Positions 697-58,824 of a stretch of 64,000 nucleotides of DNA are shown here, in pieces. The notes under the pieces were generated by a model that saw nothing but the letters and a program-made list of their open reading frames with translations, did no database searches and was not told where the DNA came from. Made by a program: the position numbers and the translations under genes. The stretch spans positions 186,001 to 250,000 of the forward strand of contig WHVD01000113.1 of NCBI GenBank assembly GCA_015178975.1, given 5' to 3'. How positions within the stretch are numbered: the first letter of the stretch is position 1; every line of letters starts with the position of its first letter. The DNA comes from Hysterangium stoloniferum. Lineage: Eukaryota > Basidiomycota > Agaricomycetes > Hysterangiales > Hysterangiaceae.

Positions 697-1626
697 TGTT
701 ACGACCGTGTCGTAACCCATGTCGCAACCCGATGGTCTCCGAGAATACTACAGTCTATCGATGTTTCGAGTTATTGATCAAGTCATCATTTCGGCAACCT
801 TCGGAATACCGACACTGACGTATACCTTCACGGCGATCAAACCTCGTTTACGCCCCTGTCAAATATACTCGTACCATCTGGTTATGCTTTGATACGTCCC
901 CTTTCATTATGATGATCCGTTTTACTCTATGTTTCACATATGCCCATATATACCTGTAGCCCGTGGACTATTCCCTTTTCTCGTAATTCCGCTCTCGGCT
1001 AATCTCGGCTTCCGATCTTATTGTAACTTTCCGGTTCCTAGTCAAGCTTATTTGTCAATGCCGTTTTCCGCTCTTCCCTTAGTTAGTAGTTTCTAGACGC
1101 CGATAACCCATATATAAACCCGCTGTAATGTAACTACTAGACAATCAGAATATCGACTTAGAATATCGACTTAGCTCGACTTAGATACCCTCTAATTTCC
1201 GACTCCATTATCTATTCATGACCACCACATTCCGACTCCATCCGATTTACGATTCAACCTACATTTACGACTTCAACCTCTAATCTCCGACTCTCAGTCC
1301 CCGACACTCTCAGTCTCCAACTCTCACTCTCCGACTGTCTCAGTCTCCGACTCTCAGTCTCCGACTCTCAGTCTCCGACTCTCAGTCTCCGACTCTCTCA
1401 GTCTCCGACTCTTGGTCTCCGACCCCTCAACCCAACCCTCAACTTATCCTTCGGTTTCCGATCGGTAGTTTACCGAGAGGTTTACTTGACAGGACTAGTT
1501 TTTGCCCACCCAAAATTTAAGGACACCTGACGGTAACTTGCGAGGGCACAGCACATAAGCTGAAGCCAAGTCCTTCCGTTCGATCCCCGTCGGTCTGCCG
1601 ACATCCGTCAGTTTCTGCTCTTAACA
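697..1626 (-). repeat. 3' LTR of the gypsy element (family A)
   Basis: On the plus strand the block begins TGTTACGACC and ends TTCTGCTCTTAACA, giving the short inverted termini TGTTA/TAACA of an LTR. It lies immediately downstream of the minus-strand pol frame, and the pol stop codon TAA (1621-1623) is inside the LTR terminus. The same terminal sequences bound a solo copy at 41666-42389, and the 3' portion recurs at about 58347-58824. It carries an internal CTCTCAGTCTCCGA minisatellite and the conserved LTR block near 1545-1582. I find no 5' LTR partner beyond the gag end. Confidence 0.8.
1291..1416. repeat. CTCTCAGTCTCCGACT minisatellite inside LTR
   Basis: Tandem 14-16 bp units of the type CTCTCAGTCTCCGACT run through this part of the LTR, with single-base variants. 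The same array, longer and more homogeneous, occurs at about 58347-58616 next to the same LTR 3' sequence, so it belongs to the LTR and is not an independent locus. Confidence 0.85.
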
Positions 1627-3024
1627 TTGCGGCAACAAATGGACACTTGAAACGCCCAAGGCCTCCATGTATGCCTGCAATGGCTGCATGTGTTGAATCT
1701 CCTTGTATGGCAACCACGTCTTCTCAGCCGTGTTCCACAACACCTCAAACAAGGCATCAATGCCTTTTCCCGAGTGAGCCAAAATTCTTTCTACCGCCCA
1801 CTCTCGTTGCTGACTGCCAAAGCCAGGGATTTGTCTCAGCTGCCTACCTGGGAATAGCTGGTCATCATTTGGGATATGGATACGAAGTAAAGACGCGTGA
1901 AAGGAAGGGTTAATTCCCTGCTTCTTTAACTCCACTGACAGGTCCAGCTCATAGGTTGCACCTGGCTCCAATACGCGGGTGATCCTAAAAGGGCCAATGT
2001 ATTTCGGCAGCAATTTGTGTGCCCGATGCTTTGGCAAATGTAAGTTTTTCGTGGACAGATAAACAAGGTCATTGATGCTAAACTTGGCAGCCCTCCTATG
2101 GCAGTTTGCCTGTCGCATCTGCTTGACCCTTGCCGCCAGGATTTCATCATGGGCACTCATTATGGCCAGCTTCATGCGTTCTGCAAAGGCAAGAACACCG
2201 GGATATTGTGTGTTGCTCTCCCAGAGCAACGGCCGTGGCATCAGGCCATAATTCAAGAAGAATGGTGAGAACCCGGTCGTTTCAGAGGTAGCGTTATTCA
2301 TAGCAAACTCGATCGCAGGCAGTTTTGACACCCAATCCTTCTGGTTTGGTGCTATACACTGCCTCAGCATCTGTGTCATCGTTCTATTTGCTCGCTCAGT
2401 CGCTCCATCCATTTGAGGATGGTATGCCGAAGACATCCTCAATTCAACCCCTATTAACCGGTGAAGGTCTCTCCAGAACAGGCTCGTAAATAGTGAGTCT
2501 CAATCGCTGATTATCTTGAGCGGCAGGCCATGCAGCTTGTAAACATGCTCGAATATTACTTCAGCCATTTGGGTAGCAGTATAATTGCCCCGTGCTGGAA
2601 CTAAGTGAACCATGCACGTTAAATGGTCAATAATGACACAGATGTTATCAAACTCCCCAAGGCGGTTCTTGGACAGTGGTAATGGTCCCACAAAGTCGAC
2701 TCCAATTGCCTCCCATGGTTGTGAGGGCACCTCCAATGAACGAAGATGTCCCTGTGGCTTCTGAGTATCTGATTTCGATGTCGCACACACACTGCAAGAC
2801 CTGCAAAACAACTCAACATCCTTGGTTAAAGATGGCCACCATACGTTAGATCGTAGGTATGTGGCAGTTTTCCTTGCCCCTAAGTGTGCCAGGATCGAGT
2901 GAGTGTGCGAGATAATTATTTCCCGCACCTGTCGATTTCCTACCATAATATCTGGGATACACAGTAAGTTGACCTTCTCTAACTTCAGAAACAAGAGGCC
3001 CTCCTGTAATGTAAACCCCTTATA
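1621..3024 (-). pseudogene. Pol: integrase with C-terminal chromodomain-like tail
   Basis: It continues the pol frame after the TAG. The zinc-binding HHCC region is visible, with HLGARKT followed by CRSCSVC near 2790-2900. The core has VDFVGPLP (first Asp) near 2680-2700, a second Asp in IISD just before the TGA at 2500-2502, and HPQMDGATERAN with the catalytic Glu near 2395-2425. The TGA replaces the residue after SD, usually Arg in these integrases. The tail has a GPFRI motif and a chromodomain-like EVLWNTAEKTWLPY segment. The frame ends 6 nt inside the LTR. Confidence 0.85.
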
Positions 3025-6000
3025 CTACAAGGGTGCTGCCCATATCTTCACGAAGAAGTCATCCGATCCATACTGTTGTTGAAGTGCATCCGGGATGTGG
3101 ATGCCTGGGTGACCCTCTGAGATTATCCTCGCTAGCGGAAACTCAGGACGTGTGTCTGTCTGAATCCCCGGTAACTCGCCCTCCATTGCCAAGTGTGAGG
3201 TGTATCCTATGTCATCCTGCCGACTATTGTTGCCTGACTGATCCAGCCCTTCTTGCAAACCAGAATCTGCACCCCATTCTGTATCTGCGTTGGCCACCCC
3301 TTTTCCCGGTTGTCCCTTATGTCTCTTGCTCTGAGTCTTCAACCCTGCCAGAGTTGCATAAGATGGGCGTGAGCGTGTGGCCAGCCTGCTGGACCGTCTG
3401 GTTGCCTCTGTTAACACCGCTGCTGCTAACCCTGTATACAGTGGTGTCGACATGGTGTTGAGGCAGCCTCCTTGTGGCCTGTAAGGTACTCCTCTCTCCT
3501 CCTCGTCCCCCTCAGGAGTCTCACTTACATATTCTGTTTCCGCCCGAATGGTTCCGAGTGGTTCATCACTGTAAATGCGGGACAGTGCATCAGCAAAAGT
3601 ATTCGCCTGGCCAGGAATGTACTGGATCTCGAAATCGAATTCGTTGAGCAGGTCTAACCACCTTGTCTGCCTGGGGGACAAACTTCTTTGTGTAAGTATA
3701 TATTCTATGCCCTTATGTTCAGTACAAATCCGAAATTCTACCCCCAACAGCTGTGGCCGAAACTGTTTCAATGATTCCACAATGGCTAGGAGCTCCTGTT
3801 CATGCACAGGATAGTTCTGTTGAGCCGAGTTGAATTTCCCGGACCAAAAGGACACCACAGCCGCTTTTTGAAAGTCGTCCCCTTGGCTGAGAATGCCACT
3901 CGCTCCCGTTAAGGAAGCGTCAGTTACCACATTAATAGTGGAATGGCCTGGTGAGTAATCTAATGCAATGCGATACTTGTCCTGATGAGACTGAACAATC
4001 CGCTTAACCTCTTCGAAGGCACATTGCTCAGTTGCGCCCCACCTCCATGGTCTGTTTACCCCTGTCTGATTAGCCAGGATGGCCATCGGGATTCTTACCC
4101 CTTCACAGTTGTTCGCAAGGTATCCTACTGCCCCCAAAAACCCAGCCAACAGTAACTTGTTCGTCGGAATTTTCCAGTTCGTGACTGAGTCCACCTTATG
4201 GGGGTCCATTTTTATCCCTTTATCATTGACCACATGACCTAGAACTCGCAATTCAGGAGCAAATAAGTGCATTTTGTCGACAGCCAGGTATAGCTTCTCT
4301 TGACGGAGCACCTTAAACACGGTATGTAAATGCTTCACATGATCGCCAATGGAATCTGAATATACGACTATATCATCCAGATAGACATCCATGAAAACAC
4401 CAATGTAAGGAGTGAATAGGTGGTTCATCAATGTCTGGTATGTGGACGGCCCATTGCAATCGCCAATCTGTAATGTTAAGCTTTCCATAGTGCCATCTGG
4501 AGAGGTAAACAATGTCCGATGGACATGCTCTGGCACCACTCGAATCTGCTCGTATGCATCCTTTCCATCTATTAGACTCCGATACTTATGCCGCACAATG
4601 TTCCTTAGAATGGCTTCAATATCCGGCAAGGGTGTAGCCAGCTTATACGTGTTAGCGTTCTGCTCACGTTTATCCACTACCGTGCGAATCCGCAGCTTTC
4701 CATCAGCTTTTGGAGGCTTAGGAATGATGAGCATAGGACATGCGTTTGTGCCCGTGGCTACCCGCCATCTCCCATTCCTCAGGTACGCTGTTTTCTTTTC
4801 CTGCCATAGAGCCCTCATTGCTTCTGGACACTTAGAAGGCCGCCATGAATAGATTTTACCCTCGTCAATTATTGGAATGGTATGATTCACTGCCCGTAGT
4901 GGAGGCAGCCCTGTCAGTGCAGTGTCTGAGTCTAAGTCCGCTGCTTCAGCTCGCAATTCGGCCTTTAAACTATCAAGCTCATCCTCGAAAACTTCAGCAA
5001 CGGCGGACCGCAGTGTCTCGACGGCGTCTCCTTCCATTGGTAGTGGCTGGCTAGACCCAATGTTAACTCTTGTAGGATTCAAGCCTAGCATCACTCTATG
5101 TTGAAAAATAAATGGGGTTCCTAAAATCAAATCATAGGAGTCGAGATTGGCGACATCAAAACGACGTGAACAATTTATGTTCTGGTATACAAACTGAGCA
5201 GTCGCCGAATAATTGATTTTTGATCTCGACCCGTGAACAGCCAATTGCACAGTGAGTGGTTTGAGCAGTGGATTCTTAGTAACTCCTAGCTGATCAACCA
5301 ATGTCGTGGACATAAAATCTGCAAGTGACCCACTATCAATTAGGGCTTTCACAGGTCGTCCATTTATGAATGCTTCAATAACAACTGGCTTGGGCAGCCA
5401 CCGAGTAAAATCCTTGGGCTGATTTGAAGTATGCTCGACTGTCTCAATACCTTCATTTTTTAATTGACTCCATTTAGGTCCTAATGTTTTCCTCCTGGTG
5501 ACATGGGCAGCATTTGCGAAAACAATTGGTTCCGATGACTCCTCCTGGGATACTGCCCGAGTCAATATATCAGGTACGGTCCACCCCTCATGCTGTAAAT
5601 GGTCGGTTGTCACAGTATATCTTTTCCGTAATTCCCGATCGTGAATCTCATAGACCCCTGCAGTAAAGGAAACTCGGAATTGCTGCCGCTCCACTCCATT
5701 TACATCGTTAAAAACACTTGTCTTATAGTAGACTTGGAAACGGAGATCCAGAAGATTGGACATCGCCCCTTGACAATACCTTCGAAACTCTGGCATATCT
5801 TCAGCAAAACCAGGTATGTGCTCCTCATAGACGGCCTCTATTTTATCATCCATGTTCTCATTCAGCCTGACCACAGACCATGGCATAAACAGAGGTATGT
5901 CCGTGTGGATCTCATCCCATATCCGAAGTCCCAATTCTTCTGTATATACCCTAAACCGGGCTTCAGGATTAATTCCCTCCTGCAGTGCTTCTTTAGGTGG

Positions 6001-6837
6001 AAAGTACTCCTTCAGGGCTTCGAGAAGATACTGCGTTGGACTATTTCCCTCTATTCCCGGTGGGTCCTCATCCTCTATTGGCTCCCATTGGGCAGTTCCT
6101 CCTGCCATTGGGATAGCATTGCTAACTACTTGCGCAATTTCCCAGTCACCACTGAACAGGGCTTGTTTTGTAATCGCCATATATAAGTGGGGTTGTAAAA
6201 GATCCACGATTTCATACACCCAATGTGTACCATCAAACGAGACCTGAAATCGTTCTGTGTGTCGCATTCCCGCTGCCATAGACTCAAGTCGCGAAAAATG
6301 TGTACAACAACGCTGTTGTATAATCCTTGCCACTGTAACATGGTCTGCACAGTTGTCGGTGAGCTTTTTCCCTAACCATTCAGGGTCATTCACAATGCTT
6401 TGAGCAACAGTAAATCCTGGTTCCCAACATATAATTTTGCTAATTTGAAGAGGATCCCCAGGTATGACGTTGTCTCTCACCCTGAAGTCTTCCACCGAAT
6501 AGGATACCTCGAACCGTGTCAGCGGATTTTGACCCTCAGCTATGGCAGTATCAGGCCCAAAATATTCAGTGATCGATCTCTGCAGCCAGGTGGCATAAAT
6601 TTGATCATGTAAGTTATTGAACTCCTGTTGTGTCTCTTCATCCTTAAACACGAATGAGGCCATATGTAGTTGTAACTCTGCCCGTTCCTTCTTTCTTTCC
6701 AAATTGGTAAGTTGTTTTACTCGGACAGATCCAGCAGACACCATTACCCCTTTTTTTGGTGCCGACACGCACTTCCCGCGGGGACAGTTGCGGGATTCGT
6801 GACCCTCATTCTTGCATGAGAAACACCGCCCCTCTGC
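3025..6837 (-). pseudogene. pol: Pol: protease, reverse transcriptase, RNase H (gypsy)
   Basis: An open stretch of 1247 codons from Met 6768, continuous with Gag upstream. It contains an aspartic protease with ALIDSG near 5330-5345, a reverse transcriptase with the catalytic YLDD box near 4365-4395, and an RNase H/connection region with TDAS near 3910-3930 and the FADALSR motif near 3580-3600. A long region of about 450 codons precedes the protease without recognisable domains. The TAG at 3025-3027 separates it from integrase in the same frame. Overall length and order match Ty3/gypsy elements of Agaricomycetes. Confidence 0.88.
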
Positions 6838-8850
6838 TCAAAGTTGATTCATCTCACTCCGACTTAATTTAGGACGTGGTTCGAGGGTGGTACCCCTCGG
6901 TCCAGATGGCTGGGAGTGGTAACTTTTCACCCCTTGGGTATCCCTCTTCTGCCCGGTCTGACTCACTAAATCTTTCTTTGGGGGCCATATCCGAGGTGAT
7001 CGGGACGCTGTGTTTTCCCTCCTCCCTTTTTCTGCCAGTCGAAATTCTTGTGCAGCCTCAAACCGGGTAGCCATTTTGGTAAGTTTCTTCCATGACGTAT
7101 TGTCAGGATTGAGCCCATTATCTAACCATTTTTCTTTAATATAGTCATATGCCCCATCCCAGACAATTTGCTTGAGTTGTCGCTCGTGGATATCAGGAAA
7201 CCTTCTAGCGTTGTTTTCGACATCTCGTGCAAAATCACGAAAACACTTTCTACCCTGCCTGGCGGATGTTAGTTGCTTTCGCAGATGCACCTTATAATCG
7301 GCAGGAAAGCAGTAATCGAATAGGTCATCGTAGACAGCCTTCAAGGTCCACTTCCGTTTGCTCAACGCTACATGCTTCATATAGAAGGAGCTTGCCTTTC
7401 CATCCAGGAAGTATATGATCAATTTCACCGCCCACTTGTGATCTAACCCGTTGATCTCTGCCCAGAGATCATAAGCATATATAAATGCTTCGAGAACGTC
7501 AAGTTCAGCAGTGCCTGTATAGATCACAGCTTGCTTAGTCTTAACTCCAGCAAGCAGCTTCTTGGTTCGTTTCGCCTCAGCCTTGGACCGTTTGCGTTTG
7601 ACCTGTCTTACGCGCTGAGAGCTAGGTGAGTTTTTCTTTCTATGCTTCCTTCTTGTTTCAGAGCGACTTAGGGGAGCACCTTCCGATCCTGATCCAGACT
7701 CAGGGGAGTCGGTGCTACGTCCGCTGGCTGATGAATCTGACTCAGTTGACATGCTATCTGACAACTCATCGTCTCCATCACTAGACGATGAGCTGCTTGA
7801 ATGAAATGGTGGTCCGAATTTCCCTTGCCCTCCTACTGCAAAGTACCCGCCCTCCGGCACTTGCGAAGGCTCCCATACATAACGGCTAGTAACTTTCTTG
7901 GGCTTCCGCTCTTTCTGTGGCGGACTATTCTGCATTTCGCTCCCTTTGTACAGGTTCTTCAAGGGACACTCACCTTCCATTCTTTCCTTCCCTTTGCTGG
8001 TGTGCATTGACAACGTCTGTTTAGATCCATCTGCACTTGCAGGCTCTAACCTAGTAGATGTGGGTTCATTTGGTACAGGTGTGTTTTCCTCTACCTCAAT
8101 GACAATAGCGCTAAGATTTACGGATGACCGGGAAAATATTCCAGAGCTTTCCAGCCCTCTAGTCCCTCCGGTTCTCAGCTTGTAGGGTAACGTCCATGTT
8201 TCTGGGAGCGGCCCTAACTGATCGTCATCAGATTCCGAACAATCGGACCATTTAAACTTAGCACCCTGGCGGTGCTCAAGTGCCGTCTCCTTGGACGATC
8301 CTTCCTTCCTCTCATTGCCACTGCTCTCTCCTTCAAACCACTCTGGAAAAAAGAGTGCTTCTGGGCGAATGAGAGGTTTCCCCTTTTGGAACCTCCTTCA
8401 GAAGGTCTTTCGAGGTGCCGCCAGCTCTTCAGGGTACACCAAACCGTACTGACCAGTCCAGTTTTGGAGGGCGACCTGAGTTCTGAGATACTCATTAGGA
8501 CAGGGAAATGTCGCGTTGACCTCTCCACTCTCACTAGATTCATTTGAGGCTTCACTAATAGGAACTTGATTGTTTCCACTGGAAGTGGCCATCGAGGGAT
8601 CCGAGGCAATTTGCGATACCTCTTCCATCTCGGCATCACAGTCCATCCTCCCCTCTCTTTCTGCATGTGCAGTGTAGATCGGTTCAGGGCCTGTGGTATT
8701 CAGATGTGAAGAGGTAATACTCACCGTTTCAGTAGCGAGACTATTCAAATCATCACTAGCCACCCGTCGTCGAGCGATTCTCTTGCTCCACATGGGAATT
8801 GAACTTCGGACAGTGCCTCGACGAGTGATAGGTTGATTAATTTCGGACAT
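6838..8850 (-). pseudogene. gag: Gag of the gypsy element
   Basis: The frame opens at 8850 and reads a Ser/Glu-rich N-terminal region, a TGA at 8398-8400, then a basic and Ser-rich linker (about 7600-7800), followed by a conserved retrotransposon Gag core (about 7060-7500) with the typical aromatic/leucine pattern. It ends at a TGA at 6838-6840. The frame continues straight into a perfect CX2CX4HX4C zinc knuckle (about 6780-6830), so the stop separates Gag from its own nucleocapsid motif. That position argues for mutation (CGA to TGA) and against a programmed gag-pol stop, which normally follows the knuckle. Confidence 0.8.
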
Positions 8851-13830: not shown

Positions 13831-14310
13831 TTTTCTTCTCCTTTCTTCGGAATTATCCTTCAAGATCGGCTAGACGAATTATTGAGGATTTGCCATGTAA
13901 AAATCCTCAAAGAGATTATTTTCTTCTTGAGTATTGTGAATGACCGGCCAGCGAGATTCCCGAGGCCCGCCGGTCAATCATTTCCGCCCCGCACCTAACA
14001 TACCGAGGAAAATCTATTTGGAAAAACCATAAAGCATGTCCCAAATATCTAGTCGAACCAAGACATTCCGTCTAATTTCTTCCCCCTCTAGAACTATATC
14101 CACCCCCTCATTGCTGCCTAGTTCCTTCCCCTTACAGAACGACATTCAGCTCTTCATCACTGCATAAGTTCCTTCCCCTCTCATGACGACTCCTACCTCC
14201 TTATTTCTGGCTATTCTACCCCACCTTCCAGAACAACATCACCTATTTTCTGCCCCATCCATACCGACGCCAACCTCTATTACTGTCTATCTTCTTCCTC
14301 CTCCAGAACA

Positions 14311-16231
14311 ATGGACAACAACCTAAGGTGAGTATAATTCTGTCGGCCTCAGCCATCGATTTCGAGCTTTTATCAAGTAGTTCATGTAGCCAAAGCCCGA
14401 GAGAAGACGGATGCAAATGCAAAGCTCAACCACCCGATGTAGAAGGGAGGAATTTAATTGTCTGCATTGACGGGGCCTCAAATCAATCGGGGGACAAGGT
14501 ATGTTCTCATGTTTATCGACAAATGTATGACCCGTCTGATCCTTCTCTACAGAATACCAATGTCATGGAGCTTTACAGCCAGCTCGTCAAGGATGACGCA
14601 CGTCAACTCACATATTACAATAGCGGCATTGGGACCTATGCCAAACCCTATTGGAGGTCGGTGAGTTACTTGATACAAGTGCTCTGCAACAAGATTGCCT
14701 TCGCAATTGCCTGGTACGACGACGTTGTACATAACCGATTGTTGATTAACATCATATCCCTAAAGGAACTTTGAGAAGATCATTATGGATGCATACCGAT
14801 GGTTAGCGGACAACTACCGGGATGGTGACCGCATCTATTTATTTGGTAATGTAGAGGAAATTCGGTGCTTCTTTTTCTTCGCTAATCGCATACTTCAATC
14901 ACAGGCTTCTCACGGGGTGCATATCAGGTGCGAGTTTTGGAGGAAATGATTCACAAAGTCAGTGTTTGCGGGGTATTTTCCACGATCTCTTCACTTATGC
15001 TGAGAGATTAAGGTGATTAGGTTGGCCTCATACATAAAGGCAACGAGGAACAGATTCCATTGTAGGATTGAATTCTATATCTATTCCGCAAGGGTATTGA
15101 GGTCATATTAGTGCATATGAACTGTATGCAGATCCGGCAAGTGACGGAAATATGTCTGGCACCTCATACCGAATGAACCTGGCCCAACGCTTTAAGGACA
15201 CATTCTCTAGAAAAGACGTTCGAGTGTATTTTATTGGGGTTTGGTACGCTGATTATCCTATTAAGGCTGCGGCGCTTTATTAAAAATAAACTTGTTGTTT
15301 CTCAGGGATACTGTTTCATCCATAAGAGGTCCAAATCTTCCACGAACGGTCACATTAGACCACATGTGTTTCTTCCGCCATGCACTTGCCCTCGATGAAC
15401 GCCGGGTAAACTTCCTGCCTGAGTATGCTTGTCGCGGAGTCATGGTTCCTCAAAGTAAGTTATTAGTCATTAATATGAATTCCCTGCAACTCCTTCTCCC
15501 GCACTATCCAAGCAGCAGTCGCTCCAAAATGCTGCGAGTGCTGAACACCTCGCTCAGCAACAAACAGTTAAGGAAGTTTGGTTTCCGGGAACCCATTCCG
15601 ATATGCGAGTATCTTTCTATCTCTTCGATATAATTCGTGAGCTGACTGGGCTTCGCAGAGGTGGAGGAAGCGTGATCAGCGGTGACTTAGACCGTAGACA
15701 CCCTGCCTTCTTATGGATGTCCTATGAAGCTGCATGGGCAGGTCTGAGACTAATGTATTCCGATGTAGCATGGAAATGGGATGAACTAGGTCCAATTAAT
15801 GAGTCACTCACGTCGGTTTGGAAACTCCTAGAGTATTTGCCGATAAAGCGACTGTCCTACGAATCTGGCGACAGCGTCACTTGGCGGTACGTTCTTACTG
15901 CATGGGGTTCAACGTGTTAATTTTATAGGGCATTAGTCCACATCGTGGCCGGGGACGCAAAATACAGCCTGGACAGAAGGTGCACGTCTCTGCGGCATAC
16001 TGTCAAAAGTCGTATTCACCCAAGGTCGTCCTACCTGTGGATGGTACACAATGGGTTGGCTTTATAGGCCTTGGTGACCCAGAAGATCCGTTGTCTGTCC
16101 TGCGGGATCTCAAAGATATAGATCTACTAGAAATGGAAATCTTCGATCCAAATGCTGCAGACATCGTCATGAACATGATTGAAAGCTCACCAGATAAAAC
16201 AGGACCGCTGCACCGTCCGGCAATTATGTGA
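14311..16231 (+). CDS. DUF2235 family putative alpha/beta hydrolase, ~10 introns
   Basis: The family is an uncharacterised alpha/beta-hydrolase-like group that includes bacterial type VI lipase effectors; the fungal role is unknown. Splicing by eye from ATG 14311 gives exons 14311-14327, 14390-14498, 14553-14726, 14776-14845, 14905-14957, 15021-15061, 15112-15243 and 15306-15454, then about 15517-15608, 15659-15886 and 15937-16231. Diagnostic motifs in order are LIVCIDGASNQ, YYNSGIGTY, YLFGFSRGAYQVR (the nucleophile-elbow type G-x-S-x-G), GVWDTVSSIRG, FRHALALDERR and VWFPGTHSDM followed by RGGG. Most junctions are GT-AG and in phase. Those after 15454 and near 15608 are not clean, so a 1-nt lesion or unusual donor is possible there. 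The locus is partly duplicated at 18.9 kb. Confidence 0.75.
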
Positions 16232-33906: not shown

Positions 33907-35524
33907 TCAGAGAGACGACAATGGTCCAGGTTTGAGTGGGTAAGCTGTATGAAAGTCAGTAACAATTTCCATGGCATTACCGAGTTCCGTGGCCAAAATC
34001 CATGAGGTTTCTTCACCAGTGCCCTCGTAACCCGCCCACTTGACTAAGTAAAGCAGTTTACAAGTGCATTGACGCTTGTCAATTTTCAAATCTAAAATTT
34101 GCGAGATTTCAAACTTGGGTTCTCCGTCAATGATGACCGGAGGAGGCGGAGATTGCACACGATCTGGGATAGTGTTAGCAGTACAAGGTTCTAGCATAGA
34201 AACATGAAATACTGGGTGTACCATGCACATGCTATCTGGAAGCCGTAGGGTCCAAAAAACTGAACCTACTTGTGCGATAATTTCAAAAGAACTTAAATAT
34301 TTTTCAGCAAACTTTTTTGATGGACAGGTAGTCCTAAAGAATTGAGCTTTGACATAAACACGGTCGCCAATTTTGAAATTGGGTGGTGGGATCCAGTGTC
34401 TGTCCCCTGAAAGTTGGTATTGCTCTTGGGTGGACTTTATTGCAGTCCGGAGTTCCTCGTGGAGCTTGTGGAGGCCCGTGGTGAACTCTTGAGCACGAGC
34501 AGAGGCAAGATTTCGTTCTGGATGTACTGTAATATTAGGATTATATCCTTTATTTGCAAAGAATGGGGAAACACCAGTAGTGGCCGAGGGTGCATTGTTG
34601 TAAGCAAACTCTGCAAGTGGTAACAAGGATTTCCAATTGTCCTGTTGATAATTGCAATATACGCGGAGGTATTGTTCCAATGTCTGGTTGACGTGTTCGG
34701 TTTGTCCGTCGCCTTCCGGGTGATGTCCAGATGTGAAATGTAATTTCATGTCCAAGGATTTCCTGAGGGATCTAAAGAAGTGAGACACGAACTCTGATCC
34801 TCAATCAGAAGTTACTTGGGATGGAACTCCGTGCTTGGAAAATACGTGGATAATGAAAGGTTCCGCTAACTGCATGGACATAATTGTATCATGTGTAGGG
34901 ATGAATATACCTTGTTTTGAGAATCTGTCAACAACGACTAGAATGGCGGAAAAGCCTTCATAATCCGGTAGGTGTTCAATGAAACCGATAGAGATATAAT
35001 TCCACGGGTGTTCTGGCACTGGGAGTTGTTTCCAAAGGCTGTATGGCTTGTGTTGCTGAGATTTCGAGTGGGGACAAGGAGTGCAAGATTTACAATAGTG
35101 CTTAACGAATCCATGGAGTCCAGGCCAAGTGTATTCTCTTCTTATTAATGATAGAGTTTTGTTGTACCCGAAATGTCCTGAGAGTGGATGATCATGTTTG
35201 TATTGAAGGATCCTGAGGCGGAGGCCGTCGGAGTCCAGTACATAGATCCTATCGTCAAGTCTAATGAAACCATGCTGATTAAGAGACCACCGGGGGTTGG
35301 TCGGGGTCCACGGGATTGTCAAGGTGAGCTTTAGTAATTGGGTCTAGCGGAATTGCTGATAGAATATCTTGATGTAACTTCTTGATATCCATAATGATAA
35401 TTCCATGGGCAATGGGATGAACAAGGAAAGTTGTGCAGACTGATGCAATAAGTTGCTGATTTGTGAAAATAGGTTTCAGGTTGTGCGGGTTTACCGTGGC
35501 ATAATTGTTGCTCCCCTCTTTAGT
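33907..35524 (-). pseudogene. Chromovirus pol C-terminal half: integrase and chromodomain
   Basis: Minus-strand frames carry the end of RNase H, then the HHCC region (HDHPLSGHFGYNKTLSLI then CKSCTPC, about 35060-35210), the integrase core (FIEHLPDYEGFSAILVVVDR near 34910-35000; SD before a TGA at 34801-34803; GHHPEGDGQTEHVNQ near 34685-34735) and a chromodomain (LYLVKWAGYEG near 34010-34050). Relative to the consensus, the TGA falls exactly at the Arg of SDRG. A frameshift lies near 35280-35320. Protease and RT are absent: the element is cut at about 35524, where the HEAT array begins in mid-unit. Confidence 0.88.
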
Positions 35525-37741
35525 TGGACTCTTGAAGGACTCTGACTCTGAGGTTCGATCAAGCACACTCTCGGTTATGGGGAACGTTTCAGAACAAGGT
35601 GCGGTGTGATAATAGGATGGGAATCCAGCTGATATTTGACCACAGCCGAATTTGCCATTGCAGTTGTCATTCCCAACATCATTGCATTGTTGAAGGACTC
35701 TGGCTCTGGGGTTCGATCAAGTGCAGTATCCGTCCTGGGAAATGTTTCAGAGCAAGGTGCGGTATGTGAAAATGGGATGGGATCCAGCTGACATTTGACC
35801 ACAGCCGAATTTCGAGCTCCCATTGTGGCTGCCTTTCCCGAAATTGTTGCGCTGTTGAAGGACAGTGACTCTAGCGTTCGATCAAGCACAGCATCGGTCC
35901 TGGCTAAATTTTCAGCACAAGGTGCGGTGTGATAATGGGAGGGGAATCCAGTTGACCTTTGACCACAGCCGAATTTCGAGCCGTTATTGCGGGTGCCATT
36001 CCTGACATTGTCACACTGCTGAAGGACTCTGCATGGCACGTTCGATCAAGCGCAGTATCAAACCTGGGGAACGTTTTAGAGCAAAGTGCAGTGTGTCGTA
36101 CTGGGATGGGATCCAGCTGACATTTGACCACAGCTGAAAATCAAGCCACCATGGCACGTATTAAGCGTGACATCGTTGCGATGTCGGAGGACTCCAATTC
36201 TAGCGTTCGATCAAGCGTAGCATCGACCCTGGCAAAATTTTCGGAACAAGGTGCTGTGTGGTAATGGGATGGGAATCCAGCTGACTTTTGATCACAGCCG
36301 AATTTCGAGCCGCCATCACGAGTGTCTTTCTCGACATTGTTGCACTGTTGGAAGACACTGAATGGCAGGTTCAATCAAGCGCAGTATCGGTCCTGGGGAA
36401 TGTTTCAGAGCAAGGTGTGGTGTGTGATACTGGGATGGGATGCAGTTGACATTTGACCACAGTCAAACTCCGAGTCGTCATTGCGGGTGTCATTCCTGAC
36501 ATTGTTACACTGTTGAAGCACACTGACTACCGCGTTCAATCAAGTGTAGTATCCGTCCTGGGGAACGTTTCAGGGCAAGGTGCGGTGTGTGATAATAGGA
36601 TGGGAATCCAGTTGACACTTGATCACAGCCGAATTTCGAGCCGCCATTGAGGGTGTCATTCCCGACATTGTTACACTGTTGAAGCACTCCGACTGGAGCG
36701 TTCGATGCAGCGCAGTATCCGTCCTGGGAAACGTTTCAGAACAAGGTGCGGCGTGTGATATTATGATGGGAATCCAGCTGATATTTGACCACAGTCCAAT
36801 TTCGAGCTGCCATTGCACCTGCCATTCCCGACATTGTTGCATTGTGGAAGGACCCTTACTCTTATGTTCGATCAAGCGTATTGTTGGTCCTGGGGAAGGT
36901 TTCAGAGCAAGGTGATGTGTGTGACAATAGGATGGGAATCCAGCTGACATCTGACCACAGCCGAATATCAAGCCGCCATTGCGGGTATCATTCCCGACAT
37001 TGTTGCACTGTTGAAGGAGCTTTACAATGAGGTTCGATCAAGCGCAGCAACGGCCCTACCTAAATTTTCAGCACAAGGTGTGGTGTGTGATAATGGGATG
37101 GGACTCCAGGTGACATTTGATCACAGTCGAATTTCGTGTCGTCATTGCGGGTGTCATTCCTGACATTGTTGCACGATTGAAGCACTCCGACTGGAGCGTT
37201 CGATCAAGCGCAGTATCCGTCCTGGGAAATGTTTCAAAGCAATGTGCAGTCTATGATACTGGGATGGGATCCAGCTGACATTTGACCACAGCCGAATTTC
37301 GAGCTGCCATTGCACCTGCCATTCCCGACATTGTTGCATTGTTGAAGGACTCTATTTCTTCTGTTCCATCAAGCGTACTGTCGGTCCTGGGGAACGTTTT
37401 GGAGAAGGGTGCGGTCTGTGATGATAGGATGGGAATCCAGTTGACATTGACCACAGCTGAATTTCGAGCCGCCATCGCGGGTGTCATTCCCGACATTGTT
37501 GCACTGTTGAAGCACTCTGACTCTGAGGTTCGATCAAACGCAGTCTCGGTCATGGGAAACGTTTCAGAACAAGGTGCGGTGGGATAATAGTATGGGAATT
37601 CAGCTAATATTTGACCCCACAGCCGAAGTTCGAGCTGCCATTGCGGGTGCCATTCCCCCCATTGTTACACTGTTGACGGACTCAGTGTCTGACGTTCGAT
37701 CAAGCGCAGCATCTGCCGTGGTGAAAGGTTCAGAACAAGGT
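35525..37741 (+). CDS. HEAT-repeat exon array, block 1 (units 0-13), 5'-truncated
   Basis: Fourteen tandem units, each a 117-nt exon (39 codons, phase 1 at both ends) plus an intron of about 45-49 nt. Checked examples: exon 36629-36745, intron 36746-36794, exon 36795-36911. The spliced repeat reads AEFRAAIAGVIPDIVALLKH, then a variable loop (SDWS, SDSE, SGSG, TDYR, LYNE) and VRSSAVSVLGNVSEQ, a canonical two-helix HEAT repeat. Introns start GTGCGGTGTG, contain CTGAC or CTGAT and end TTTGACCACAG. Unit 1 (35646) has a 6-nt in-frame deletion. Unit 0 is cut at its left edge by the chromovirus. I see no in-frame stop in this block. HEAT solenoids bind proteins or nucleic acid; the N-terminal effector, if any, is lost. 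Confidence 0.8.
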
Positions 37742-38278
37742 GAGCCGATAAGTCTTATTGAAGGATTTGTCTTGAGTCTCCACAGGGGAGTTTCTCCCCC
37801 TCGTCAGGACTAACATACGTGCAGCTGTAGGAGTGTCGGACAAAGCGCAACCAACTCTGCTGGAGTTACTTTCAATCCCACTTCAAAGCATTCTCATTCC
37901 CTCTTCTTTTCCATCTTATTCTGATCGATATGGCGATAATCTACCACATGTGCCCGATATACGAGACCTCTCTGGATTGTCTACCCATCGTCTGTCGTCA
38001 ACTATGGATCTCTTGCTTGGTACAGATAGTATTTCGCGTCACGAAGACATCAAGATCATTCAATGCATAACAATTACATGTATGTGGGGACAGGTCATAT
38101 ATTATTTATTGAATAATTTCCATACCACTTTAAAGCCCGGAAGTTTTTCCTTCCCTTATCCAAATTCGACCTCAATCTGAGACGAGGAAAGGTGGCTCTG
38201 GGACCGCTGGTCACTGCTTTGTATATTTTTGGTTCGTACACCAATCCTCATAAATTCCCATGATTCATAGACTTGCAG
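37742..38278 (+). CDS. Non-repeat linker between HEAT blocks
   Basis: After unit 13 the donor is GTGAGC and the next acceptor is probably GTGCAG near 37824. The following exon reads KAQPTLLELLSIPLQSILI and LSTHRLSSTMDLLLGTDS (about 37828-38083), ending at a GTATGTG donor. 38084-38278 looks like an intron or spacer ending in GACTTGCAG. This may be the original C-terminal part of one HEAT gene before a second array begins, or a non-repeat insert within one gene. Family not recognised. Confidence 0.5.
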
Positions 38279-40728
38279 ACGCATTTGAAACCGCCATTAC
38301 ACGCGCTATTCACGACATTTGTTACACTGTTCGAGGACACTGACTGGAGCGTTCGATTAAGCGCAGTATCGGCCCTGGGGACCGTTTCAGAGTGAGGTGC
38401 GCTGTGTAATAATGGGATGTGAATCCAGATATCATTTCGCCAGAGCAGAATTTCGAGGCACCATTGCGGCTGTCATTCCCGCCATTGTTACACTGTTGAA
38501 GGAATCTGAATGGAGTGTTCGATCAAGCGCAGTATCGGTCCTGAGGAACGTTTTAAAGCAGGGTACGGTGTGTGATACTGGGAGGGGAATCCAGCTGAAA
38601 TTTGACCACAGCCGAATTTCGAGCCGCCATTGCGGGTGTCATTCCCGACATTGTTGCACTGTTGAAGCACTATAACTGGCAGGTTTGATCAGGCGCAGTC
38701 TCAGTCCTGGGAAACGTTTCAGAGAAAGGTGCGGTGTGATAATGGGATGGGAAACCAGCTGACATTTGACCACAGCCGAATTTCGAGCTACCATTGTGGC
38801 TGCCTTGCCCGGAATTGTTGCGCTGTTGAAGGACAGTGACTTTAGCGTTTAATCAAGTACAGCATCGGTCCTGGCTAAATTTTCAGCACAAGGTGCGGTG
38901 TGATAATGGGATGGGAATTCAGTTGACCTTTGACCACAGCTGAATTTCGAGCCGCCATTGCGGTTGTCATTCCTGACATTGTTGCACTGTTGAAGCACTC
39001 TAACTGAGGCGTTCGATCAATAACAGTATCTGTCCTGGAAAACGTTTCAGAGCAAAGTGCGGTGTGTGATACTGGGATGGGAATCCAGCTGACATTTGAC
39101 CACAGCCGAATTTCGAGCCGCCTTTGCGCCTGCTATTCCCGACATTGTTGCACTGTTGAAGTACTCTGACTCTGAGGTTCGATTGTACGCAGTATCGGTC
39201 CTGGGGAACGTTTCAGACCAAGGTGCGGTGTGTGATAATAGGATGGGAATGCAGCTGACATTTGACGACAGCCGAATTTCGAGCCGCAATTGCGGGTGTC
39301 TTTCCCGACATTTTTGCACTGTTGAAGCACTCTGACTGGAGCGTTCGATCAAGCGCGGTATCGGCCTTAGGGAACGTTTCAAAACATGGTGCGGTGTGTG
39401 ATAATAGGATGGGAATCCAACTGACATTTGACCACAGCTAAATTTCGAGCCCCAATTGCGCTTGCCATTCCCGACATCGTTGCATTGTTGAAGGACTCTT
39501 CCGTTCGATCAAGTGCAGTATTGGTCCTTTTCAAGGTTTCACAGCAGAGTGCGGTTTGTGATAATGGGATGGGAATCCAGTTGACATTTGATCACAGCCG
39601 AATTTCGAGCCGCCATTGCGGGTGTCATTCCTGACATTGTTGTACTATTGAAGCACTCCGACTGGAGCGTTCGATCAAGTGTAGTATTCGTCCTGGGGAA
39701 CGTTTCAGGGCAAGGTGTGGTGTGTGATAATGGGATGGGAATCCAGTTGACACTTAATCACAGCCGAATTTCGAGCCGCCATGGCGGGTGCCATTCCCGA
39801 CATTGTTGCACTGTTGAAGTACCCCGACTCTGAGGTTCCATCAAGCGCAGTATCCGTCCTGGGGAACGTTTCAGAACAAGGTGCGGTGTGATAATAGGAT
39901 GGGCAATCCAGCTGATATTTGACCACAGCCGAGTTTCGAGCCCCCATTGCGGCTGTCATTCCCGACATCGTTGCATTGTTGAAGGACTCTGAATTTGAGG
40001 TTCGATCAAGCGCAGTCTCGGTCATGGGGAACGTTTCAGAACAAGGTGCGGTGGGGTAATAGGATGGGAATCCAGCTGATATTTGACCACAGCCGAATTT
40101 CGAGCTGCCATTGCGGCTGTCATTCTCGACATCGTTGCATTGTTGAAGGACTCTGGCTCTGGGGTTCGATCAAGCGCAGTATCCGTCCTGGGTTATGTTT
40201 CAGAGCAAGGTGCGGTCCGTGATACTCGGAGGAGATCCAGCTGACATTTGACCACAGCCGAATTCCGAGCCGCCATTGCAGCTGTCATTCCCGACATCGT
40301 TGTATTGTTGAAGGACTCTGAAGGGCGCGTTCCATCAAGCGCAATATCGGTCCCGGGGAACGTTTCAGAGCAGGGTGCAGTATGGTAATAATATAGGAAT
40401 CGAGCTGACGTTTGACCTCAGCCGAATTTCAAACTGTCATTGCGCTTGCCATTCCTGACATTGTTCACTGTTAAAGCACTCTGACTATGAGGTTCGATCA
40501 AGCGCAGCATCAGCCCTGGCGAAATTTTCAGAAAAAGGTGTGCGGTGTATGATAATGGGATGGGTATCTACCTGACATTTGACTGTAGCGGAATTCCGGG
40601 CCGCCATCGCGGGTGTCATTCACAACATTGTCGCACTCTTGGAAAACATATCTCCACAAACTCAAACCCTAGTTGTAAACCTGCTCGTTAAGCTAGCAGC
40701 TCATGGTGTGTGCCTTGACATGCAAGTC
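38279..40728 (+). pseudogene. HEAT-repeat exon array, block 2 (units 14-28)
   Basis: Fifteen more units of the same exon-intron design (checked example: exon 39598-39714, 117 nt). Several are damaged: unit 14 has an inserted T and a TGA, unit 16 (about 38611) has CGA changed to TGA, unit 17 (about 38776) to TAA, unit 18 (about 38940) has TGG changed to TGA, and unit 21 (about 39438) has a 6-nt in-frame deletion. The last unit starts near 40590 and runs without intron into a terminal segment (ENISPQTQTLVVNLLVKLAA) and a TAG near 40726, the natural end. Because every exon is phase 1-1, skipping a damaged exon would keep the frame. Confidence 0.75.
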
Positions 40729-40789: not shown

Positions 40790-41215
40790 TAGGGAGCTCA
40801 CACAGATGTGATTCCTGAGATTCTTAGGGTAGATACATAGGATGCAATATGCAGATTATAGCAGTATTCACACAGAGGTGATTCTTAAGATTCTGGGTGT
40901 ACATACACAAACCATGATATACAGACTATATGGGTACCCACACTGAGGTGATTCTTAAGATTCCTGGGGTAAATACCTCCTACATGCTATGCAGAAAATG
41001 GATGTACTCACACAGAAGTGATTCTTGAGATTTTTAGTGTAGATACATACACAGCAAGTGATATACAGATTATAAGATAATTCACAAAGGTATGTAATTC
41101 TTGAGATTCTTAATGTACATACACAGAACATGATATACAGATTATATGGGTGTCTACACTGAGGTGATTCTCAAGATTCCTAGGATGAATCAAATACAGC
41201 TGATCTGGAGATATT
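40790..41215. repeat. Tandem repeat, ~72-bp unit, about six copies
   Basis: GTGATTCTTRAGATTCYT recurs at about 40808, 40880, 40950, 41019, 41093 and 41164. Each is followed by GTACATACAC-type and ATATACAGATTATA-type text. Units are 69-74 bp with about 20% divergence. It lies between the HEAT gene stop and the helicase fragment. Confidence 0.8.
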
Positions 41216-41248: not shown

Positions 41249-42700
41249 TTAGGGGATTGGGGGGATTGGGGGGATTGCCTCACATGTGAAACATGACTGC
41301 ATTGGAACTTCATGCCAAATAATCAGTCGGACATTCTTCATAAGCTCTGCTTTTTCTGAACCCTTTTTGATATGATATAGAGCATCCTTTTCACAGGGAA
41401 CAGGGATTGAAAATGTACTGTGAGAAGTGCAACCACCCTTGAGAATCATTGATGCAATTCCAGAAGATGCCACACAAAGCACAATGTAGCCCTTGGCCCT
41501 ACATGCATGTGCCAAAGTATTCCATACAAAGGACTTGCCAGTGCCACCTGGACCATTCACAAAAAACAATTTGCCCTGCTGCTGCTCATCCACTGCCTTC
41601 ATGATAGTCTCAAAGGCAGCTTGTTGTTCAGGATTGCACTTTTCAAGATTGGCTTGGGCACTGGCTGTTAAGAACTGAAAACTGACTAATGTCGGTGGCC
41701 GACAGGGACCGATCAGAAGGACTTGGCTTCAGCTTATGTGCTGTGCCCTCGCAAATATCTGTAGGGTGTCCTTAGATTTCGGGCGGGCGAAGACTAATCC
41801 TAAAGAGCTCTTTTCGGCGAGATACCGATCAGAACTGAAGGACAAGTCGAGCATCGGGCCAAGGGGTCGGGGCCAGGAGTGGGCGAGCGCACACGGAGGT
41901 GGATGGGGGGATTCTTAGTGTGAGACTATTACAGGCGTATGAGGGTGTTCTGAGTTGTTATTCTGATTGCCTAGTAACTACAACTACAGCGGGTTCATAT
42001 ACAAGTAACAGGCGTCTAGAAAATACTAATGGGGAGAAGGGCGGAAAAACGGCATTAACAATAAGCTTGACTAGGAACGGGAAGTTTATGATTAGTTCGG
42101 AGGCTGATGATAACCGAGAGCGTAATTACGATAAAAGGAAATAGTTCAAGGACTACAAATATAGATAGACATATGTGAAACATAAGGTTGAACGGATCAA
42201 CATAATAAAAGGGACGTATCAAAAGTTTGACCAGACAATACGAGTTATTTTGACGTGGGCGTAAATGGAGTTTGATCTTCATGAAAACATATGTCAGCTT
42301 CGGGGCCGATGGTTTCCGAGATGGTGACTTGAACCATTGATAAGTGGCGATAGCCTCGGGGCCGATAGGGTTGCGACACGGTCGTAACACTGGCAAGCTC
42401 ATGTTCCACATTATAATTCTTTTGCTCGTTAATGAGACGGTTGCCAACAATCCTATCCCAATTATCAGTGCAGTTTGGCATGGTTGGATAGTGTGAGAGG
42501 GACTTTCCAGAATAGCTTAGGATCCTATCAATTTCATAGAGACCAAAGTGGGCAATGAGGTCGGTATGCGGCATTGCATAATCAGGAAAGCAGACACTAA
42601 CTTGGCGTCGTTTGGAATACCACTGGGTTGCCGAATCCAAGTGGAATCTGATCATTGATGAGGGACTATCATACAGTATATAATATAGGGTCACATACGA
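41249..42700 (-). pseudogene. Helitron-type PIF1 helicase fragment split by a solo LTR
   Basis: Reading right to left, 42700-42395 gives a Helitron ORF segment (YPTMPNCTDNWDRIVGNRL, NEQKNYNVEHELAS). After the LTR the frame resumes with NPEQQAAFETIMKAVDEQ, the Walker A box NGPGGTGKSFVWNTL, LCVASSGIASMIL and LIIWHEVPMQ (normally WDEVPM, so the Walker B Asp is His here). Both sides join at the CTGGC target site. The C-terminal helicase motifs are lost at about 41290. The Rep domain is absent, so it is a helicase-only remnant. Confidence 0.82.
41666..42389 (+). mobile_element. Solo LTR (family A), 724 bp, TSD CTGGC
   Basis: It starts TGTTAAGAACTGAAAAC and ends CGGTCGTAACA, flanked by CTGGC at 41661-41665 and 42390-42394. 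Its termini are the same as those of the gypsy LTR at 697-1626 read in reverse. It lacks the CTCTCAGTCTCCGA minisatellite and carries the conserved LTR block at about 41718-41750. CpG-rich, so young. Confidence 0.9.
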
Positions 42701-48791: not shown

Positions 48792-50045
48792 TTAATTCCT
48801 TGCCTTCATTCTCATCACTACATCATACGACCCTTGAATTCTCTTGAACTCCTCGCTGTCCTCGTTAAATCCTGTCAGTTTCGTGATTACATTTCGAACA
48901 CCCTGCTGCTCAATCTCATTCTTCAGCTCTGCAGCCTGCTCGTCCTCGTCGTTCTCATATAACATCGCAGCGGCAATGCCGCGAGCAATATTATCAATAG
49001 GAAGGCGATATTCTCGGGCGGTATAGACGGGACCGAGCAAACGGTCGTTTTTCGCGAGCTTCCGTAGTGGCTGGCGCCCCACCCGCTTTACATTATCCAC
49101 GACATTCGGGTTGCGGAATCGATCGAGCGTCCTCTTGATATACTTTTGCTGCTCATCCAGTGTGCAAGTAGGGTGCTTCTTCACAAGGGCTGCGCCGCCC
49201 TCTTGCATGGCGCCTTCGACGATGCGGAGAATTTCCTCATCCTGGATGCTGTCGAATATGGTGGGGTAACCTTTTAGGAACCCGAGGTAGGCGGTTGTTG
49301 CGTGGCCGCAGTTGAAGGTGAAGAGCTTCCGTTCAACGTAGCCGGGAAGATCGTCCGTGAGTGCCATGCCCTTGATCCCGAGCGTCCCACTGTTGTCAAT
49401 ACCTGTAAGAGGCCCTCGTTCGACGATCCATTCTGATAAAAAATTAATAATACGCTTTTAGTGACCCGTTGACAGAACCGACCACAGAAATATTCCACCC
49501 CAACGTCCAGCGGTGAATCATTCTCGAATGGCGGCACGATGCGATCGACCGAGCAATCCGCAAAGCCAACGTGTTCCTTTGCATACTTCTTATCTTCCTC
49601 CGAAATATGCTCGAAAACCGCCTCCCGGAGCTTTTCCGTCGCACCGACTCCGTTCTCGCATGCAATCACGTTTAGAGGCCCACTTCCCGCCTTTCTGCGC
49701 TGCGAAATTCCCCTGGCTATCGGACCGGCAATTTTCGGGAGTACGGGGAGTCCGACAGATGTAGTGACTAGTTTGACGTCTGGTGCTGCTATTTCGTTTG
49801 GCAATTGATCACTTGTGGACACGATCCCTGAGATGTCGGTGACAGTCGTAGTGCCCCCGTTTCTTGGGCTCGAGGGTGTGTACAGCGTATTCTCTGTGTT
49901 CGTTTGCTTTGTTTATGACATCGGTGTCGATATCAAGGAATATGACATGGTAACCAAATTGTACGAGTAAAGGACCGATAAAGCCTCGTCCTATATTTCC
50001 AGCACCAAAGTGAATTGCACACAATTGTTTGTGATCGACAACCAT
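48792..50045 (-). CDS. mtlD: Mannitol-1-phosphate 5-dehydrogenase, one frameshift
   Basis: It interconverts fructose-6-phosphate and mannitol-1-phosphate with NAD(H), the fungal mannitol cycle enzyme in the cytosol. The ATG at 50043-50045 begins MVVDHKQLCAIHFGAGNIGRG, which holds the Rossmann dinucleotide motif GAGNIGRGF. Further motifs: TTTVTDISGIVSTSD, VIACENGVGATEKL, FADCSVDRIVPPFE, EWIVERGPLTG, PGYVERKLFTFNCGHA and RFRNPNVVDNVKRVGRQPL. One intron (49433-49482) has donor GTCGGT. The exons total 1204 nt, one more than 401 codons; the extra base is in a G-rich run at about 49851-49858, after LEPKKRG. Without it the protein is 400 aa, the usual family size. Real mutation or sequence error cannot be told apart here. 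Confidence 0.9.
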
Positions 50046-58346: not shown

Positions 58347-58824
58347 GTCCGACACTCTCAGTCTCTGACTCTCAGCCTCCGACACTCTCAGTCTCCAACT
58401 CTCTCAGTGTCCGACTCTCTCAGTGTCCGACTCTCTCAGTGTCCGAATCTCTCAGTGTCCGACTCTCTCAGTCTCTGACTCTCTCAGTCTCCGACTCTCT
58501 CAGTCTCCGACTCTCTCAGTCTCCGACTCTCTCAGTCTCCGACTCTCTCAGTCTCCGACTCTCTCAGTCTCCGACTCTCTCAATCTCCGACTCTCTCAGT
58601 CTCCGACTCTTGGTCTCCGATCCCTCAGCCCAACCCTCAACTTATCCTTCGGTTTCTGATCCGTAGTTTACCGCGAGGTTTACTCGACAGGACTAGTTTC
58701 TGCCTGCCCAAAATTTAAGGACACCCGATGGTAACTTGCGAGGGTGCAGCACATAAGCTGAAGCGAAGTCCTTGCGATCGGTCCCTGTCAGCCTACCAAC
58801 ATCCGTCAGTTTCTGTTCTTAACA
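58347..58824 (-). repeat. Family A LTR fragment with expanded minisatellite
   Basis: 58347-58616 is a 16-bp CTCTCAGTCTCCGACT array of about 17 units, more homogeneous than the copy at 1291-1416. It is followed by LTR text ending CTGTTCTTAACA (58824) that matches 1420-1626 closely. The conserved LTR block is at 58738-58770. The left part of the LTR is absent. Confidence 0.85.

Follow-up and report, generated by a model that had tools for sequence, protein, structure and literature searches.

The 64,000-nucleotide window analysed here (positions 186,001 to 250,000 of contig WHVD01000113.1 of Hysterangium stoloniferum) carries a tandem array of HEAT-type exons, almost certainly the truncated and decaying relic of one member of a DUF6535-HEAT gene family with about 40 members in the genome of this fungus (Phallomycetidae, Hysterangiales), which is ectomycorrhizal (PMC7550596). 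On balance, the sequences of the family's other members suggest membrane-anchored repeat receptors that would have diversified by turnover of their arrays. A literature search of open-licence PubMed Central papers found no report of a DUF6535-HEAT family.

Tandem Repeats Finder places a single array at 35523–40641 (period 166, score 3583; period 329, score 3668), and a 23-base acceptor motif, allowed at most three mismatches, matches the window 20 times (0.00 expected), always within 35803–40278. When delimited by wraparound alignment to the unit consensus, the array contains the 29 HEAT-type exons with phase 1 boundaries that a preliminary description of this DNA had reported (a cut first unit, blocks of 13 and 14 complete exons, and a terminal exon), and a trimer of the consensus matches the HEAT family as that description had supposed (PF02985, E = 5.8e-17). 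The exon length of 117 nucleotides given there holds for 23 of the 27 complete exons, the others being 111 nucleotides long (two) or aligned as 118 (two), while the introns, given as about 49 nucleotides, measure 46–49 nucleotides and every exon boundary is in phase 1. The introns, as had also been claimed, are not more diverged than the exons (mean pairwise difference in this copy 0.166 versus 0.221). To call the units near-identical, however, is too strong for the window copy, where mean identity among the 23 exons of 117 nucleotides is 77% in nucleotides and 63% in amino acids, as compared with 84–92% and 70–84% among the units of ten relatives elsewhere in the genome. Nor is the array uninterrupted: a non-HEAT two-exon module (37786–38231) divides it, with counterparts 80–82% identical in relatives (82% over 496 bp between window positions 37787–38279 and the centre of the relative C377).

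The stops and frameshifts of the window copy all lie in its second block, units 1–14 and the centre module being open. Specifically, in-frame stops occur in units 20 (38612–38728), 21 (38776–38892) and 22 (38940–39056), units 18 and 31 each carry a one-base frameshift, and four of the 27 units bear a stop if the frame of the consensus is applied to the alignment columns. The DUF6535 exons of C377 lie in the 3.5 kb that precede its array, and this sequence has no blastn match in the window; by the same comparison the PF20153 domain of the DUF6535 relatives has no counterpart in the window copy. At the other end, window positions 40655–40728 are 85% identical to the sequence downstream of the C377 array. 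We regard the copy as a relic because its 5′ exons are gone, three of its exons bear stops, two frameshifts are present, and its 3′ homology ends before the last exons.

The size of the family is apparent from several probes. A two-unit probe finds 520 matches in the genome (18 places among the approximately 150 matches listed), the centre module finds at least 40, and the 439-residue exon that encodes most of DUF6535 finds 101, of which 41 extend over 400 residues or more, 37 of them free of stops; PF20153 has 75 matches in the genome, versus none in 14 prokaryote control genomes. A further centre module is found on the window's own contig (C17:150520–151000, minus strand), about 73 kb from that of the window. 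The arrays of the ten relatives were read and contain 24 to 35 HEAT-type units each; only C377 was spliced end to end, its 35 exons joining into 1,934 open residues, short of the extreme 5′ end, in the order DUF6535, a helical linker of about 300 residues, HEAT 1–14, centre, HEAT 18–31, terminal unit and two C-terminal exons. At the junction of the DUF6535 exon with the first HEAT unit there are two candidate donors, both in phase 1: the early donor is GT in 10 of 10 relatives and leaves eight of them open into the first HEAT unit, and C377 requires the late one. Eight of the ten relatives show no defect in the parts tested. An additional, more distant relative, C79, left out of all counts of ten, has only 10–11 units with irregular lengths, some stops and a frameshift, and is a less homogenised or decaying member.

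These relatives bear directly on the kind of protein involved, which the preliminary description had likened to the repeat sensors of fungal NLR/STAND proteins, with NACHT or NB-ARC as candidates for the domain preceding the array. The domain found there is instead DUF6535, a predicted four-helix membrane domain (PF20153 at 149.2 bits in C157 and 152.9 bits in C377, cut-off 23.9; E = 1.1e-44 in C377), and a search of C377 (its first 612 residues, centre and C-terminal part) gave no match to any nucleotide-binding domain, even with E values up to 1 allowed. Inspection by eye of the genome's 38 NACHT matches places one of them, at C24:621283 on the opposite strand (E = 8.1e-4), no more than 10 kb from a family locus. 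As a nucleotide-binding domain was not found, membership of the family in NLR/STAND is not supported by its sequences, and what survives of the likeness is the C-terminal, superstructure-forming HEAT repeats, their homogenisation within arrays and the small number of variable surface positions, the last a pattern that PMC12222747 describes for repeat sensors of fungi.

Coding constraint was assessed in those 261 HEAT exons of the ten relatives that have AG at the acceptor and carry no more than 26 differences from the consensus (30 in the ungapped site profile). First units, terminal units, centre slots and units lacking the acceptor AG (such as C157 unit 6, an artefact of alignment) were excluded, and the acceptor AG, being present by construction, is not evidence. 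The length of the exons is divisible by three in 261 of 261 cases (117 nucleotides in 256, 114 in two, and 111, 108 and 105 in one each), the five with indels all preserving the frame, and of the 81 introns that depart from 49 nucleotides 68 do so by a non-multiple of three. Donors are GT in 260 cases and GC in one, and a single unit bears a stop by direct reading (C200 unit 20), as against two when gap-aligned columns are counted. The consensus allows 95 single changes that are synonymous, 240 that are missense and 13 that create a stop, of which 76, 170 and one, respectively, are seen (Fisher's test, stop versus missense p = 7e-6, synonymous versus missense p = 0.10), counts that are not independent since the units share descent. 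The ratio of nonsynonymous to synonymous change (dN/dS) is 0.26 for DUF6535, 0.43 for the linker (45 pairs) and about 0.86 for the array; DUF6535 is under constraint, the linker less so and the array hardly.

GT-AG introns of 46–50 nucleotides are kept in all arrays, with a mean conservation of 95% per position among 180 introns of 49 nucleotides; this positional conservation is no proof of splicing because the whole intron is equally conserved. The introns look young and co-duplicated. Conservation for a function of their own was considered and rejected, the intron difference in the ten relatives (0.117) being close to the synonymous difference (0.133). We think it very probable that intact members are expressed as spliced repeat proteins, and as nearly all units sit on symmetric exons, in phase 1 at both ends, skipping of an exon would keep the frame. 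For the window copy, being a relic, the matter of isoforms does not arise.

Variability within the 39-residue repeat is concentrated in the loop after the LLK motif (residues 20–24), as the preliminary description had stated. In a site profile of the units computed ungapped, entropy peaks at residues 24 (2.63 bits), 23 (1.78), 22 (1.76), 35 (1.59) and 28 (1.36), and the repeat core is quiet (L17 0.07, F3 0.21). Among 2,064 exon pairs with one to eight differences, codons 22–24 hold 1.78 nucleotide differences versus 0.15–0.83 in three-codon windows elsewhere in the repeat. The 256 units carry 61 loop triplets, and pairs that share both array and triplet number 398 versus 228.5, a value reached in 0 of 1000 shuffles; the arrays own distinct loop repertoires, and the loop itself is hypervariable. 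Change is strongly concentrated at codons 22–24, but a SLAC-like count of sites gives no excess of amino-acid change there. Strong positive selection at the loop is unsupported by the site counts; the same picture would arise from exchange or mutation at a locally elevated rate, or from old variants that stay in circulation.

The units are homogenised within arrays, another point on which the earlier claim stands: the nearest unit lies in the same array for 114 of the 261, versus 25.6 expected by chance. Two pairs of relatives are, by their flanks, recent duplicates (C32/C2b, 97.4% identical; C2c/C200, 97.6%), and in each pair only five of 25 units have a partner of at least 97%, the collinear units of C32/C2b lying mainly at block edges (11, 15, 26–29). 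In C157, units 26–28 equal units 31–33 in every aligned column, introns included. Array interiors thus turn over faster than flanks, which is the pattern that unequal exchange of whole cassettes gives. The same-array nearest units and the repeated run in C157 are also what is expected of units evolving in concert within a gene. Set against the criterion of PMC4986451 for high internal conservation, 85% amino-acid identity over at least 100 residues, the means over all units of the ten arrays fall at the 70–84% given above, with some units identical.

A protein of Mycena albidolilacea (P0152, 1,679 residues) provides a replicate of this layout, with DUF6535 (E = 8.7e-46), linker, 13 repeats, centre and 10 repeats, the repeats being 66% identical to one another (19 of 23 used). 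Its variability follows that of Hysterangium when the repeats are aligned in register (Spearman 0.55, p = 3e-4), the coefficient in other registers ranging from −0.22 to 0.20, and its most variable positions are 23, 24, 27, 31 and 22. Among the solved structures that match the repeat (best 60 of 172 matches), four of the six best are named alphaRep, designed HEAT binders whose randomised positions 18, 19, 22, 23, 26 and 30 (PMC3754942) correspond, via shared VR and ALG residues, to 23, 24, 27, 28, 31 and 35 in the fungal repeat. Of the five positions that vary most, four belong to this set in Hysterangium and four in Mycena (p = 8.7e-4 each versus a random set); residue 22 is variable in both fungi and is not an alphaRep position. 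Similarly, variability among 22 alphaRep segments correlates with that of Hysterangium (0.57) and Mycena (0.72), in register only. The agreement supports, although it does not prove, a binding face formed by the variable residues. As for the membrane domain, the hydropathy of DUF6535 has four candidate membrane stretches and predicted models from both Mycena and Hysterangium sequences contain four long helices, which makes it a predicted four-helix membrane domain; in a comparison of the model with solved folds none was clearly related, NINJ1 and ORAI leading a set of equally ranked helical proteins that falls short of a trustworthy match.

It is plausible from these features that DUF6535 forms a four-helix bundle in the membrane, whose four crossings would place the two termini together on one face of the membrane, probably that of the cytosol; a solenoid of 24–35 repeats would then face the cytoplasm with residues 22–24, 28 and 35 of each repeat lining one binding face. 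Unequal exchange between the 166-bp units, which should be helped by the joint duplication of intron and exon, would change the number of repeats and the order of loop variants, and paralogues may thereby gain different specificities, the most likely ligands being molecules of the cytoplasm that vary, whether they come from self, non-self or an invader. That surface variability serves recognition, and that binding leads to an output, is inferred, and whether the less damaged members act as recognition receptors is, in our judgement, evenly balanced. The working principle would resemble that of high-internal-conservation NLRs, even though NLR membership fails on the nucleotide-binding domain.

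Several observations weigh against receptors built in this way. Missense change is nearly as free as synonymous change, which also fits relaxed constraint; C1b is frameshifted in its linker-HEAT exon with the splice sites tried, and C200 has the stop in unit 20. The deposited H. stoloniferum gene models P0032 and P0033 translate some introns (peptides of the type QGAVCDNGMGI..LTFDHS), and with introns read through in this manner the existing annotation is no evidence for splicing at every junction; because these models contain intron peptides and lack the DUF6535 part, the published annotation also misses the architecture of the family, which is easily missed in genome surveys since deposited models are fragmentary. 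In a SLAC-like parsimony count amino-acid change is not in excess at residues 22–24 (p = 0.87, 0.95 and 0.73), because synonymous changes rise there too, and the only low value among the 39 positions tested is at position 36 (p = 5e-4). The units of C157 and C377 are not less alike than their flanks (25 of 32 reach the 94.1% of the flank), only out of order. Lastly, the alphaRep positions came from natural HEAT variability, and agreement with them may therefore mark merely exposed residues. A rival is neutral drift of the arrays, in which the proteins are ordinary scaffolds or tethers, units are homogenised by unequal exchange, the core is kept for folding and the loop is unconstrained. An array dN/dS near but below 1, a loop excess that is not significant, a ratio of nonsynonymous to synonymous differences in nearest pairs of 0.84 at variable positions versus 0.75 at others, and an equal share of differences at first, second and third positions within codons 22–24 all agree with such drift; we nevertheless find it rather doubtful in view of the approximately 40 copies, the array-specific loop repertoires, a rate of change at codons 22–24 about twice that of the next window and unlike that of the neighbouring residue 21 and V25-R26, and the variability of the same residues in Mycena.

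Other explanations give the membrane domain or the solenoid a different role. Were the proteins tethers of organelles or contact sites in the manner of Vac8, a membrane-bound ARM/HEAT scaffold with different partners, the combination of membrane domain and solenoid would fit, and Vac8 is indeed among the sequence and fold matches of the repeats; but these matches are no better than those to other ARM/HEAT proteins, and a housekeeping role is not expected in some 40 rapidly rearranging copies, which makes tethers improbable. We give a similarly low standing to cell-death or channel effectors, in which the DUF6535 bundle would itself be the output, as a channel or as a lytic oligomer, while the HEAT array would act as the bundle's sensor or else as its brake. 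Pseudogene debris describes the window copy truly; that the array has no function anywhere is very hard to credit for the relatives given their open frames, avoided stops, frame-preserving indels and the dN/dS of 0.26 in DUF6535.

If the family does consist of membrane-anchored repeat receptors, the consequences reach beyond this genome. Recognition by homogenised, hypervariable repeats has so far been tied to NLRs in fungi, and a family of about 40 genes that keeps this repeat logic, with a membrane domain in place of the nucleotide-binding switch, would amount to a second solution. We tentatively suggest, as a possibility we would not yet favour, that Agaricomycetes carry an undescribed class of membrane-anchored recognition receptors free of a nucleotide-binding domain, natural counterparts of alphaRep in which 166-bp cassettes are exchanged and rewritten between paralogues and strains, with exon skipping adding variants within one mycelium, and which might serve self/non-self or parasite recognition with DUF6535 relaying the signal into the membrane or through it. 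The DUF6535-HEAT layout occurs at least in Hysterangiales and Mycena, and in Serendipita with fewer or partial repeats. Its cassette exons also offer a clean test of array turnover, in that each repeat has a neutral clock, its intron, beside it.

Table 1. Features of the HEAT array and its 5′ neighbour in the window.
Feature	Position	Strand	Remarks
Ty3/Gypsy pol fragment	33907–35520	−	integrase open reading frames 34801–35343 and 33907–34800
Truncated first HEAT unit	35523–35598	+	3′ two thirds of exon, open; alignment begins at unit position 42
First HEAT block, 13 complete exons (units 2–14)	35646–37739	+	introns 46–49 nucleotides; no in-frame stop
Centre module exon 1	37786–38079	+	294 nucleotides, open; C377 counterpart 288 nucleotides; bounds by comparison with C377
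Centre module exon 2	38136–38231	+	96 nucleotides, open; 96 nucleotides in C377
Second HEAT block, 14 exons (units 18–31)	38279–40539	+	frameshifts and stops; wraparound alignment
Terminal HEAT exon	40589–40705	+	117 nucleotides, open; aligned to unit until 40641
Homology end, start of next intron	40706–40728	+	match stops at 40728; relatives' two C-terminal exons missing

The Ty3/Gypsy pol fragment is itself cut where the HEAT array starts (junction at about 35515–35523, minus-strand reading), and its larger-coordinate open reading frame contains an H2C2 integrase zinc-binding domain (PF17921, E = 6.7e-19). Directly after the end of the HEAT homology there is a 70/216 bp tandem repeat (40797–41181), followed by a PIF1-like helicase fragment, perhaps derived from a mobile element (41249–41728, minus strand; PF05970, E = 3e-36), and an interspersed repeat (41821–42391 and 835–1165) matches sequence downstream of C377 at 91% and 81% identity. 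Elsewhere in the window, a Ty3/Gypsy-like element (1621–8397, minus strand) consists of open reading frames (1621–2499, 2500–3024, 3025–6837 and 6838–8397) that abut in one frame with single stops between them, and similar C/T-rich minisatellites occur near the opposite window ends (58348–58628 and 1284–1423, with units TCCGACTCTCTCAGTC in 17.9 copies and TCTCCGACTCTCAG in 9.6 copies). Also present are a mannitol dehydrogenase over two overlapping open reading frames, presumably joined by an intron (48792–49912, minus strand; PF08125, PF01232), and a fragment resembling Tle1 phospholipase effectors (14187–14774, plus strand; PF09994, E = 1.2e-9).

Among known systems, the window family belongs with the DUF6535 (PF20153) proteins of Agaricomycetes (P0152 of Mycena albidolilacea, P0001 of Mycena venus and P0161 of Serendipita vermifera), with which it shares DUF6535, the linker and the 39-residue HEAT repeats, and P0152 likewise has two repeat blocks around a centre; no function is reported for DUF6535 proteins in the open-licence PubMed Central papers, where the term DUF6535 occurs in one of 5.39 million. 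AlphaRep, with repeats 31 residues long, is artificial and without a membrane domain, and one pair of its binders is reported to interact via the concave faces that carry the variable residues. By sequence the repeat is also resembled by long HEAT arrays of cyanobacteria (for example P0133, P0134, P0043 and P0058) with precomputed NACHT or caspase-like PF00656 domains. In behaviour the closest parallel is with fungal NLRs of high internal conservation, in which, according to the account in PMC12222747, highly similar tandem repeats evolve in concert, change rapidly in number and order, and vary at few surface codons. The HNWD NLRs of Podospora anserina (het-d, het-e and het-r), as represented in such accounts, have this repeat behaviour in common with the Hysterangium family, which differs from them in having a membrane domain in place of NACHT/NB-ARC, HEAT in place of WD40 and one intron per repeat. 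The N-NACHT/HEAT NLRs of Sordariales, as they appear in PMC12258605, share the HEAT C-terminal part, the NACHT domain being theirs only. In exon structure the comparison is with NLRP3-type leucine-rich repeats (LRRs), described in PMC6642158 as lying on uniform, frame-preserving exons (171 bp for two LRRs) with demonstrated alternative splicing: common to both is one module per symmetric exon, whereas the NLRP3 module is an LRR, its setting is vertebrate, and splicing is shown there.

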